In this document: positions 2,576-25,040 of the stretch, piece by piece
Position numbering within the stretch: the first letter of the stretch is position 1
Layout of the letters: each line of letters begins with the position of its first letter
Source of the DNA: a virus
Virus record (IMG/VR): IMGVR_UViG_3300026140_000011
Coordinates: 1 to 25,040 of that record
Reading direction: 5' to 3' (one strand)
Length of the DNA: 25,040 nt
Notes under the pieces: generated by a model
What the model was told of the DNA's origin: nothing
What the model saw: only the letters and a program-made list of their open reading frames with translations
The model's database searches: none
Made by a program: the position numbers and the translations under genes

Positions 2576-2604
2576 TTTTCTCGCAACAATAAAACCTCGA
2601 CCTT

Positions 2605-2725
2605 TGAGTTTTAGCAAAACTCATTCGGCCGAAGTTCCCTCGTGAGAGAACTGCGACTACTACTAATATGAGTCCGTATGAAATCTCATATGGACTCGGG
2701 GTCGTGAGTTGGTGGGACAACTCAC
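2605..2725 (+). promoter_or_regulatory. Hairpin cassette A with GACTACTAC motif
   Basis: Four inverted repeats in a row: TGAGTTTT/AAAACTCA (2605-2623), AGTTC/GAACT (2633-2652), a 12-bp stem with one G.T pair starting GAGTCC and ending GGACTC (2670-2697) and GTGAGTTG/CAACTCAC (2704-2725). CGACTACTAC (2654-2663) follows the second stem. The first stem is a covarying version of one at 7377-7395. There is no T run after the stems, so they do not look like simple terminators. The cassette lies between the 190-aa gene and the packaging genes. Confidence 0.6.
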
Positions 2726-7295: not shown

Positions 7296-7313
7296 GATAT
7301 TTAAGTAATACTA

Positions 7314-7438
7314 CGACCTCGTTGCGTTCGTGAACGCAACTCTGCCGCAGTTCTTTAAACCAAGAACTGCGACCTCTGAGTTTCAGAGAAACTCATTCGG
7401 TAGTGGTTTTCACTTAAAAGGAAAACCACGACTACTAC
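7314..7438 (+). promoter_or_regulatory. Hairpin cassette B: four perfect hairpins plus GACTACTAC
   Basis: In order: GTTGCGTT-CGTG-AACGCAAC (7321-7340); CGCAGTTCTT/AAGAACTGCG (7346-7371); TGAGTTTC-AGA-GAAACTCA (7377-7395); GTAGTGGTTTTC paired with GAAAACCAC(GAC)TAC (7400-7435). GACTACTAC ends at 7438, 15 bases before the next ATG. The word CGAC follows the second and fourth stems, and CGACCTC precedes the first and third. No oligo-T follows any stem. This is the fullest copy of the cassette in the window. Confidence 0.75.
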
Positions 7439-7453
7439 ATAAACGAAGCACTA

Positions 7454-9658: not shown

Positions 9659-9690
9659 TTTATAAGTAAAACCACGACTACTACATAAAC
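9659..9690 (+). promoter_or_regulatory. TATA box plus GACTACTAC element before the capsid genes
   Basis: TTTATAAG (9659-9666) is a good haloarchaeal TATA box. It is followed by AAAACCACGACTACTAC and ATAAAC (9668-9690), 23 bases identical to 7422-7444. Here the 5' arm of the hairpin is missing, so only the motif is kept. A start about 25 bases after TATA falls in ATAAACAG, giving a short leader to the ATG at 9705. Confidence 0.55.
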
Positions 9691-9704
9691 AGAGAGACAT
9701 ACTA

Positions 9705-15265: not shown

Positions 15266-15353
15266 GAAAACTACCGTTTTCTCCCATCGTGAGACTCGAT
15301 TACATAGAGTCTACACGCTGATAGGAAACTACTTTTTTTTGTCGGTCGGTTTC
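15266..15353 (+). terminator. Hairpins and T8 tract after the tail tube gene
   Basis: GAAAAC-TACC-GTTTTC (15266-15281) and GTGAGACTC paired with GAGTCT(A)CAC (15289-15316) are followed by eight T at 15333-15340, itself in the loop of GAAAC/GTTTC (15325-15353). The T run is the strongest in the window and fits archaeal oligo-T termination, ending the capsid-sheath-tube transcript. Confidence 0.6.
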
Positions 15354-15370
15354 TTTTCTCATAATAACTA

Positions 15371-15439
15371 CGACCTCGTTGCGTTCGTGAACGCAACTCT
15401 GTAGTGGTTTTACTTTCACGAGAAAACCACGACTACTAC
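15371..15439 (+). promoter_or_regulatory. Hairpin cassette D with GACTACTAC
   Basis: The same 20-base hairpin as in cassette B (15378-15397), including the flanking CTACGACCTC and TCTG, is followed by GTAGTGGTTTT paired with AAAACCAC(GAC)TAC-type arm (15401-15436). GACTACTAC ends at 15439, 16 bases before the ATG at 15456. The two middle hairpins of cassette B are absent. Confidence 0.7.
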
Positions 15440-15455
15440 TTTAATAGAGAGATCA

Positions 15456-16234: not shown

Positions 16235-16254
16235 CAACATTCCCTCACCTAATC

Positions 16255-16379
16255 GGAAACGTAATTCTACGTTTCCTTCGATTGTGGGATTCTATGGAAT
16301 AGAACCCACACACGCACCGCCCCATATTGTTGTAGGGGTTATAGGATAATAAAGGTTTCGATCTATCTGAGACTACTAC
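16255..16379 (+). promoter_or_regulatory. Hairpin cassette E before the tape measure
   Basis: GGAAACGTA-ATTC-TACGTTTCC (16255-16276, nine perfect pairs) and TGTGGG(A)TTCTA/TAGAACCCACA (16283-16310) are unrelated in sequence to the stems of cassettes B, D and F. CCCC/GGGG (16320-16338) is weaker. The cassette still ends in GACTACTAC (16371-16379), 18 bases before the ATG at 16398. Confidence 0.6.
16325..16360 (-). promoter_or_regulatory. Possible antisense promoter inside cassette E
   Basis: On the minus strand CGAAA (16360-16356), TTTATTAT (16353-16346) and TACAACAATA (16334-16325) repeat the words and spacing of the leftward promoter at 1626-1663. A transcript starting near 16325 would begin at an ATG and could encode 26 codons (16245-16325), or act as antisense RNA to the chaperone gene. 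Confidence 0.4.
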
Positions 16380-16397
16380 ATACATAGAACAAAGGTG

Positions 16398-18204
16398 ATG
16401 CCCCATTTCCGCCATAGAAAATCTTAAACTCGTTGTTGATGTCGATATCGCATCGGCGCTGTCGAACCTCCAAGAGCTACAGCAAGAACTGTCCGACTTG
16501 GCTGACAAGATACAGAGCGTCGATACACGCGGTTCTAAGGGCATCAATATCAACACGCGACTTGATGATCTCGATCAAGAACTAACGCGCATAGCGACCG
16601 AACTGGAAGCATTTGAGGCCACTAACGATCTTGAGATAGACGTGGATCTCGAAGGATTGAGTGGCGAGGTTGCGAAAGTTCGTTCGCAGTTGGCAGCCTT
16701 ACGCGCATCGGAAGGTATAACGATATCGACTGATGTCAAGCGAGCAACGCGGGTGATCCCACAAGGCGACTTTGGCGATATGTCAATGCAAGCAATGTCG
16801 TCTCTTGGAGACTTTAATATTGGTGAGGATTCTGATAAAAATTTTGCAGACGTTTTACGGAACTTTAAGAAAAGCGTAACAGACGCGAAGGAAGAAATGA
16901 GTGCGTTTGATCTTCGGATGACCGATATGCACAATATGTTGGCCCGTCTTGTGCCGCTACTGCTCGTCTTCATCGGTGCGGTGCCTGCTGTTATAACAGC
17001 ACTTGCTGGACTCGCAACCGCTGCTATCTCGGCTGCCTCGGCACTACTCGCCATTGCTGGCTTCGGAGCACTTGGTGTTGGAATGGAGGGCGGTGAGTTT
17101 GATATGGAAAATCTGTCCGAAGTGATGGACGATCTTCGGCGTGATTTCCTCGATGCGTTTGCGCCGTTAGCCGAACGCCTCGAACCGATCTTCCGTGACG
17201 CTGCCGACGCAATGACGCTCTTTTTCAACGCGATCTCCCGTCAAGGCGATGCGTTAATGGAGTTGACGGACGATGCACGAGCGTTCGGGCAGTTTATGAT
17301 GGATTGGGTGCCCGAGGTACTGACGGCGATGGCGTCAATGGCAGAAGCCTTCTCGCCCGTCTTTGGAGCCATTGGTGACGCACTCGATGACGCGCAAGTA
17401 CTACGAACGTTAACGCGTCTCACAATGGAAGTCATCCCCGCTATTGGGCAGATGGCAGATACGATTATTTCGGCCATTCCGTACATTATTAAGATGTCTA
17501 TCGGGTTTGCGATAGTCTCGAACGCCATTATGGACGCGTTGAGTGTCCTCGGTTCGTTCTTGAGAATGATCGGTATCTCGCCCGAGATGTTGGGCATTGT
17601 TGTCGGTTCGATGTTAGCACTCGCCTCAGCAATTGCGCTTACGAATACCGCACTCAACTCGTTTGTGGCGTCGGCAATGGCGTCCGCAATATCTTCGATG
17701 TATTTCTTCTTCCTTTCGTTGGTCAGAACTGGTAGTGTGATGACCGCATTTGCGACAACAACCATCGGGAAAGCTATAATTGGATTGTACAACTATATTG
17801 CCGCTGCAATTAGTGCTGCTGGTGCAAGTGGAACACTTGGAGCATCGATACTGTTCTCAACCAAGGCGTTAGCGGCGTTCTTGACGTTAGCGTCGTTGGG
17901 TGTGTTAGGAGCAGTGCTCGTCCCGATGGCACTTAGTGCGGCGTCATCTTTCACGTCGCTCGGTGATTCGATCAACTACGCCGCTGATGCGATGGGCGAG
18001 TTTAACAGAGTCTCATCCCAAGGCGATGATGGATTCAATCCGTATGACGGCGGTGGTGGTAGCGGTCCTTCTGCCCCGAGTGCTGCGGTGACGGGTCCGA
18101 ACGGAAATGTTATTATCGAGTCGAGTGGTGATCCGAACAAAGATAGATCGAACGGTCGGTATGCAAGTTGGCGTAATGGACGAACGACGGGGAGTGAAAA
18201 CTAA
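16398..18204 (+). CDS. Tape measure protein; start region out of frame
   Basis: Sets tail length inside the tube and is ejected ahead of DNA. Signs: position after the chaperone, a helical/coiled N-terminus (LSNLQELQQELSDLADK, LDDLDQELTRIATELEAFE in part) and long hydrophobic helices (PLLLVFIGAVPAVITALAGL region near 16960, two more near 17580 and 17780-17950), then a glycine-rich end. The frame is open only after a TGA at 16396 and lacks ATG, GTG or TTG until TTG at 16498, yet reads convincingly coding from 16405 (ISAIENLKLVVDVD). The natural start ATG at 16398, preceded by GGTG and GACTACTAC, is in another frame; skipping one C of CCCC (16401-16404) joins them. About 600 residues predict a tail near 90 nm. 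Confidence 0.8.
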
Positions 18205-24057: not shown

Positions 24058-24082
24058 TTAACTCATAAGAAACTCAAACTTC

Positions 24083-24143
24083 GTTGCGTTCGTGAACGCA
24101 ACTCTGTAGTGGTTTGATCGTGCGAGAAAACCACGACTACTAC
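24083..24143 (+). promoter_or_regulatory. Hairpin cassette F with GACTACTAC before the fibre gene
   Basis: The 20-base hairpin GTTGCGTT-CGTG-AACGCAAC recurs exactly (24083-24102), followed by TCTG and GTAGTGGTTT paired with AAACCAC(GAC)TAC-type arm (24106-24140). GACTACTAC ends at 24143, 14 bases before the ATG at 24158. Order and linkers match cassette D. Confidence 0.7.
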
Positions 24144-24157
24144 TCATATAGAAACAA

Positions 24158-25040
24158 ATGGCTTGGACTATCGACAACCGATTCCCGACGTGGGGTGAAG
24201 AAGGTGAATTTCCGCCCGATGGATTTTTCTATACGGGCGGCGATCAAGTTAACGAAAAGCACCTTGATGCGTTGTGGCACAACGTCGAACGGTTAGAAAC
24301 CGATACTCGTGACGCACTTACTGATATCGATAGTAACGAAGATGGAACTGTTGATAATGCAGATCAAGCACAATCAATAGTTGATGGTGGTGGTCTCCAA
24401 GGAAATTTAGTTGCAGCAGATGGAGAAATTGTGTGGGATGAAACTAACACATATATTCCACAAAGTCGTTTGGAAAACGATTCTGTTACAATTAATACAA
24501 ATGAAAAATTAACTGGTGGTGGAAATGTTGAGCTTGGTGGGTCAGAAACTATTGGATTAGACGAAACGACTATAGACCACAACAATTTGTCTAATCGAAC
24601 ACATCAAGAAGATGATTTATCACCTAATTCGATAGATGCTGCCACGGTCAGTACAGGCAATGCACGGATCACAACCGTCTCGGCTATCAATAATGCAGAA
24701 CCCGTTGATGAGCGCATTAAGATAGCCAAACGGACAAATATTAACGGCACAGAGATTTGGTCGTTTAGCGGCTTCTCAGACCTCGTGCGGTCCTCACCGA
24801 CGGTCGTGGATGGAGTGGTATATGTCGGGTCTGACGACAATACGTTGCGGGCAATCGATGCGTCCGACGGCACAGAGATTTGGTCGTTTAGCGACTTCTC
24901 AGACCTCGTGCGGTCCTCACCGACGGTCGTAGATGGAGTGGTATATGTCGGGTCTCTCGACAATACGTTGCGGGCAATCGATGCGTCCGACGGCACAGAG
25001 ATTTGGTCGTTTAGCGGCTTCTCAGGCCCCGTGCGGTCCT
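24158..25040 (+). CDS. Tail fibre/adhesin with PQQ-like propeller, N-terminal part (cut by window end)
   Basis: The frame from the ATG at 24158 stays open to the end (294 codons). The N-terminus MAWTIDNRFPTWGEEGEFPP, then GGDQVNEKHLDALWHNVERLE is the baseplate-attaching part seen in haloviral fibres. Residues 60-180 are low-complexity beta stem material (GGGLQGNLVAADG, NEKLTGGGNVELGGS, IDHNNLSNRTHQEDDLSP). From residue 197 three tandem blades start GTEIWSFSGF and contain VRSSPTVVDGVVYVGS and NTLRAIDASD, a PQQ-like beta-propeller repeat abundant in haloarchaeal surface proteins. It likely recognises the host surface; the propeller may be host-derived. The stem is AT-rich, the propeller GC-richer. 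The 3' end and total blade number are unseen. Confidence 0.8.
   Translation, partial: MAWTIDNRFPTWGEEGEFPPDGFFYTGGDQVNEKHLDALWHNVERLETDTRDALTDIDSNEDGTVDNADQAQSIVDGGGLQGNLVAADGEIVWDETNTYIPQSRLENDSVTINTNEKLTGGGNVELGGSETIGLDETTIDHNNLSNRTHQEDDLSPNSIDAATVSTGNARITTVSAINNAEPVDERIKIAKRTNINGTEIWSFSGFSDLVRSSPTVVDGVVYVGSDDNTLRAIDASDGTEIWSFSDFSDLVRSSPTVVDGVVYVGSLDNTLRAIDASDGTEIWSFSGFSGPVRS
24746..25040 (+). repeat. Tandem 123-bp repeats encoding propeller blades
   Basis: Units start GGCACAGAGATTTGG at 24746, 24869 and 24992, with a period of 123 bp (41 codons), the third cut by the window end. Units one and two differ at only a handful of bases (for example TCTGACGAC against TCTCTCGAC), so they are a recent expansion and a likely site of unequal recombination. 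Confidence 0.9.

Follow-up and report, generated by a model that had tools for sequence, protein, structure and literature searches.

Intergenic repeats of the haloarchaeal myovirus HF2 are proven promoters, and one class of them is confined to the late module (PMC8707807). These repeats carry a TATA element at about −26 and conserved letters around the transcription start; in repeat IR4.5, a 9-bp inverted repeat replaces the start motif (PMC8707807).

Mobile elements that consist of little but hairpins have already been described from mitochondria, bacteria and haloarchaeal chromosomes. In bacteria, Rickettsia palindromic elements are inserted in frame in protein genes, to which they add short segments. 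The palindromic elements of Haloquadratum (PATEs) have no transposase of their own and create no target duplication, and those made of the termini only are 52 bp long (PMC3119063). No report of hairpin-only mobile elements in archaeal viruses was found in the literature searched.

The analysed DNA (the window), a 25 kb IMG/VR fragment, comes from a haloarchaeal myovirus. Its nearest isolate is HATV-2 (Soleiviridae), with 42% identity for the putative major capsid protein, for which a family match was sought and none was found. G1 (L008/L024–L025), one contig from the same virus, overlaps the window with one mismatch and extends further downstream. The longest relatives used were G2 (L011/L026–L028, 57.9 kb) and G4 (L013/L029–L032, 64.5 kb, read on its late-gene strand). 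Searching genome contigs with the capsid protein and terminase for proviruses or hosts returned no relatives. The cassettes of the window resemble the HF2 class I and II repeats (Hafunaviridae) as a repeated intergenic motif that lies upstream of genes, is restricted to the late module, and has a TATA element at a fixed distance and a conserved start region. They differ in sequence and virus family, and activity was measured in HF2 whereas the promoter here is predicted. A DNA search with window positions 7300–7445 against phages gave no haloviral match.

An earlier note on this DNA had described the cassettes as hairpins punctuating the late region and had missed that GACTACTAC, the word that ends the late cassettes, also precedes late genes at 9676 and 16371. 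GACTACTAC occurs seven times in the window, always on the + strand (0.03 copies expected), and six of the seven copies are upstream of late genes. No stem abuts the copies at 9676 (RNA-fold z-score +0.9) and 16371; the 9676 promoter has the 3′-arm letters AAAACCAC and lacks the 5′ arm. Further downstream in this virus, 20 kb of sequence contained no copy in an intergenic, late-type position. At the same late junctions, relatives carry lineage variants: GACTACTAC in L018, L087 and L091, AACTACG in L014–L016 and L088–L090, CGTCAGTACGG in L012 and G4, and ACTACTAAT in G2.

When 47 sites from 14 related contigs were aligned on ACTAC, we observed an AT peak at −17 to −13, AAC at −7 to −5, an A at +10, and a pyrimidine followed by purines from +13/+14; the sites were chosen by eye for the core, and the evidence lies in the positions outside the core alone. 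Individual sites may be without a good TATA. Expressed relative to the predicted start, the common anatomy is an AT-rich or TATA element at about −30, A[CG]TAC at −14 and a pyrimidine/purine start. In relatives, the core and the ATG are separated by varying distances, and the spacing of TATA and core is constant where a TATA is visible. This spacing is that of a predicted haloarchaeal promoter with its start at +14, and the constant 3′ end of the cassettes is most likely the core of a virus-specific late promoter, judging from sequence. Such a promoter would comprise a TATA-like element at about −30 (missing at some sites), GACTACTAC at about −15 to −7, and a purine start about 14 bases past the first A of ACTAC, with a leader of 8–14 nt. 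At G4:3185–3250 (on contig L013), a late promoter is duplicated in tandem, with TTTTAAAGCGAACCCGTCAGT present twice, and the upstream copy merges into a CCCGTCAGTCGATGACGGG palindrome.

Table 1. Features of the window and double-hairpin units of relatives that lie away from late promoters
Feature	Position	Strand	Remarks
Unit B2A2	2598..2654	+	Stems 2605-2623 and 2633-2652 (second imperfect); CGACCTT flank
Unit B1A2	7314..7371	+	Stems 7321-7340 and 7346-7371; CGACCTC flank
Unit B2A1	7370..7429	+	Stems 7377-7395 and 7403-7429; linker TTCGGTA; head to tail with B1A2 at 7314..7371
Unit B1A1	15371..15430	+	Stems 15378-15397 and 15404-15430
Unit B1A1	24076..24134	+	Stems 24083-24102 and 24109-24134
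Probable sixth unit	16247..16308	+	Stem 16255-16276, linker TTCGAT, bulged stem about 16283-16308; assigned by eye
T8 run	15333-15340	+	Precedes the 15366 cassette; may terminate the tube operon (putative function)
Late promoter core to predicted start	2655..2670	+	GACTACTAC
Late promoter before protease	7413..7445	+	TATA-like CTTAAAAG 7413-7420, core 7430-7438, predicted start 7445, ATG 7454
Late promoter before scaffold gene, without hairpin	9659..9691	+	TTTATAAG 9659-9666, core 9676-9684, predicted start 9691, ATG 9705
Late promoter core before chaperone gene	15431..15446	+	Predicted start 15446, ATG 15456
Late promoter core before tape measure gene	16371..16386	+	No abutting stem; start predicted
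Late promoter core before 24158 gene	24135..24150	+	Predicted start 24150
Terminase	3806
Portal	5607
Protease	7454		ATG
Putative scaffold gene	9705		ATG; assigned by position
Putative major capsid protein	10276		Assigned by gene order and the earlier note's map
Sheath	13525
Putative tube gene	14823		Assigned by position
Putative chaperone gene	15456		ATG; assigned by position
Tape measure	about 16398
Baseplate genes	21605 and 23434
Unit away from late promoters	G4:60762	-	CGACCTC..TCTGTAG..GACCTC
Units away from late promoters	L012:336, G4:2443		Linker TTCGATA
Unit away from late promoters	G2:26		TTCGGTAGTGGTTT, same words as window 7396-7409
Unit away from late promoters	G2:54156-54255		Between divergent genes

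Two of the late genes in Table 1 have unusual sequence features. In the tape measure gene (16398–16420), the ATG at 16398 is in frame with an immediate stop, and a different frame, from about 16414, encodes the conserved N-terminus IENLKLVVDVD; in relatives ATGGCAGCCATAGAAAATCT forms a single frame, and the letters of G1 are those of the window. Either the frame shifts here, or the start is unusual, or the sequence contains an error. The 24158 gene contains near-perfect 123-bp tandem repeats from 24744 to 25040 (41 aa, DASDGTEIWSFSGFSDLVRSSPTVVDGVVYVGS..), an array that leaves the window and goes on in G1.

Perfect inverted repeats are enriched in the window. With arms of at least 8 and loops of at most 12, 17 were observed, compared with a mean of 4.8 and a maximum of 10 in 200 dinucleotide shuffles; with arms of at least 9, there were 7 against 1.2 expected. 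Non-coding DNA, about 1.4 kb in total, holds ten of the 17; these are located in or next to the five loci named earlier, where every named stem was found in its place. Five alignable units of the form B–linker–A occur in all four combinations of two B and two A hairpins (Table 1), which upholds the described mixing of four stem types, although the CAGTTC-type stem at 2633 is imperfect. The hairpins at 16255, listed with the other cassettes, are a different, bulged pair, and this probable sixth unit is about 65 bp 5′ of a promoter core. All five units point the same way and adjoin the 5′ side of four late promoters, with the pair at 7314–7429 arranged head to tail. The cassettes are modular and non-random and stand at boundaries of late transcription units, as had been proposed. 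RNA-fold z-scores were −6.8 for 7314–7438, −5.8 for 16250–16320, −2.9 for 15371–15440, −2.7 for 24076–24144 and just −0.8 for 2598–2664. Rfam covariance models gave zero matches at the gathering threshold.

In searches with individual words, GTAGTGGTTT..AAACCACGACTAC was limited to contigs of the same virus, and the 16-mer AAACCACGACTACTAC retrieved 50 stretches, mostly from unrelated contigs, which then served as controls. Haloarchaeal plasmid matches to 7311–7333 fell within an annotated gene and were taken as a coding coincidence. A reading of the internal CGACCTC words as degenerate tandem promoters was rejected because CGACCTC also flanks double hairpins at the non-promoter sites G4:60762 and L012:336.

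A letter-blind search for two adjacent perfect hairpins, which is biased towards perfect stems, identified 39 units in 426 kb of the window and its relatives, against about one per shuffled set. Among the controls, the unrelated viral contigs (332 kb) contained 4 units, and HF2, HSTV-2 and HVTV-1 (178 kb together) contained 2, neither of them in HF2. In a larger set, there were 45 double hairpins in 598 kb of relatives and 6 in 510 kb of controls. The family consensus, about 50 bp long, is ACCTC, hairpin B, T(T/C)..TA, hairpin A starting with GT, and (G/A)AC. All five flank and linker letters are present in 13 units, while 0 control or shuffled units have three; the letters were derived from part of the scored set, and the contrast with the controls is weightier than the score itself. 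Stem letters differ from copy to copy across the family. At an orthologous non-coding site (G4:2443/L012:336), the stems show compensated pair differences and the linkers are identical; the L019/L012 comparison at G4:2443 offered no clean empty site. In relatives, units occur on both strands, between genes and in frame within genes. A covariance model of the kind suggested in the earlier note, built from the five window units (R1), did find relatives, but these were weak and all in G2. Model R2 identified untrained members in G4 (E values 2e-5 and 4e-4), L107, L108, L128 and L109, and none in HF2, HSTV-2, HVTV-1 or HATV-2.

Further hairpins were seen at two other kinds of site. The chaperone–tape measure gap, where the window has a hairpin pair, holds a hairpin of changed letters at a constant place in three relatives (CCCCTATACTATAGTAGGGG, L088:5447–5466; TCCCTACTATAGTATAGGGA, L089:2704–2723; TCCCCTTACTGTAGTTAGGGGA, G4:20410–20431), followed by the word TACTTAA. 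The stem GTTGCGTTC..GAACGCAAC recurs at L084:1941–1960 and L085:3623–3642, on two viral contigs that encode no homologues of window proteins. In L084 it follows an adjacent hairpin, with ACCTC upstream.

Units are gained or lost between close relatives. The chaperone leader of L088 contains a 49-bp insertion that corresponds to a reverse-oriented unit with AGG on both sides, and it is absent from L089 and L090. At the N-terminus of the portal gene, relatives about 89–95% identical in aligned DNA differ by extra bases that are all in frame: 0 in L106, 21 in L109, 51 in L108, and 72 in both L107 and L128. In G4, a 182-aa protein has 18–19 extra in-frame residues and the DNA polymerase has 20; both segments lie over a double hairpin, and the respective orthologues lack them. 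Some of the portal steps (+21) are half units, for which slippage fits as well as insertion, and the presence/absence differences could partly reflect deletion. The A stem of the 24083 locus is mismatched in L095 and broken in the close strain L094, yet both retain GACTACTAC. This identifies the promoter as the conserved part of the cassette and the stems as its labile part.

The earlier note had favored RNA stems that serve in processing, 5′-end protection or translation control of late mRNAs, as a conserved punctuation system. Stable predicted RNA folds are consistent with this idea, as is the retention of hairpin A pairing through three two-sided changes among the five window units. Those changes, however, are whole-stem swaps, which represent few events and no independent substitutions, and pairing is lost in L094 and weakened in L095. 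The predicted starts lie 3′ of the stems, so the stems would be absent from any mRNA begun there, and what stays constant in the cassettes is a promoter motif in DNA, found with and without stems. Relatives lack a double hairpin at most of the orthologous late junctions; elsewhere double hairpins occur on either strand and within reading frames, and close relatives gain and lose copies. We therefore regard an RNA function as very improbable. Termination or insulation, in which polymerase reading through from the upstream late operon would stop or pause before the next late promoter, is somewhat less improbable though still unlikely. The arrays do lie between an operon end and the next late promoter, the read-through RNA of 7314–7438 is predicted to fold strongly, and in Haloferax volcanii a hairpin without a T run stopped 59% of transcripts (PMC7237163). 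As had been stated, no T-rich tract of the archaeal U-tract type follows the stems at the window cassettes; the T8 run of Table 1 precedes one of them. Against termination are the missing hairpins at most orthologous junctions, the units within genes and between divergent genes, and the broken stem of L094.

Alternatively, the palindromes might be operators, centred on the TATA position and upstream of it, which would bind a late-promoter regulator of viral or host origin. In five window units, hairpin A is indeed centred over the TATA position, 13.5–15 bp before the core, and some relatives have palindromic TATA boxes there. This placement follows from the length of hairpin A, which is about 27 bp and ends at the core. 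Without the window the centring is weak (z about 2), and TATA-centred dyads were rejected as a general rule. With at least four different stem sequences, there is no single operator, and units are also found distant from promoters. We give operators as little credence as RNA stems.

Taken together, the data make it probable that the cassettes are compound, consisting of a late promoter core joined to copies of a multiplying double-hairpin element; the hairpins are most likely elements that are mobile or expand by themselves and have settled next to late promoters. Template switching in palindromes re-makes perfect arms, so perfectly paired stems with differing letters need not have been selected as RNA. 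We propose that, within this haloarchaeal myovirus group, the element multiplies both in intergenic positions and in frame inside genes, and that it would spread by copying of a hairpin-forming single strand, either through replicative template switching or through a transposase supplied by the host. The stems would stay perfect through such copying and not through an RNA function, and any effect on expression would be secondary. A Y1 transposase (PF01797) was found in none of five related records, with control genomes positive; a host transposase may act in trans. Against this explanation count the missing Y1 transposase and the arrangement of the window units, which all point one way and abut late promoters; this arrangement could reflect a selected role.

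The units show two hallmarks of mobile double-hairpin elements: paired hairpins that recur in many copies with the same flanks and linker, and sites that are occupied or empty in close relatives (L088 versus L089 and L090, the portal series and the G4 proteins). They resemble mitochondrial double-hairpin elements, which are described as short palindromic or hairpin sequences that do not code for protein and are considered mobile (for example PMC5910586, PMC7218506). The mitochondrial elements belong to organelle genomes and are unrelated in sequence; the present ones reside in archaeal viruses and also in frame within genes. Like Haloquadratum PATEs and small mobile repeats, the units are palindromic and have no transposase of their own; PATE palindromes, however, are alike between copies and resemble IS605-type ends, whereas here the stems vary and the flanks and linker are constant (PMC3119063). 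Compared with the longer, bacterial palindromic elements of Rickettsia, the viral units are about 50 bp and consist of two hairpins. Rather tentatively, and with more doubt than confidence, we suggest that they are minimal double-hairpin mobile elements peculiar to this virus group. Each copying would restore their stems to perfect palindromes, and the elements would enter virion genes in frame and would prefer, or have been recruited to, the late promoter, thereby altering late gene control.

The shared late-promoter anatomy makes late gene control directly testable in a poorly studied virus family. If the proposal for the hairpins is true, small viral genomes would hold active palindromic elements that add in-frame segments to the portal protein and settle at promoters, and they would offer a compact system for learning how hairpin elements copy themselves without a transposase of their own.
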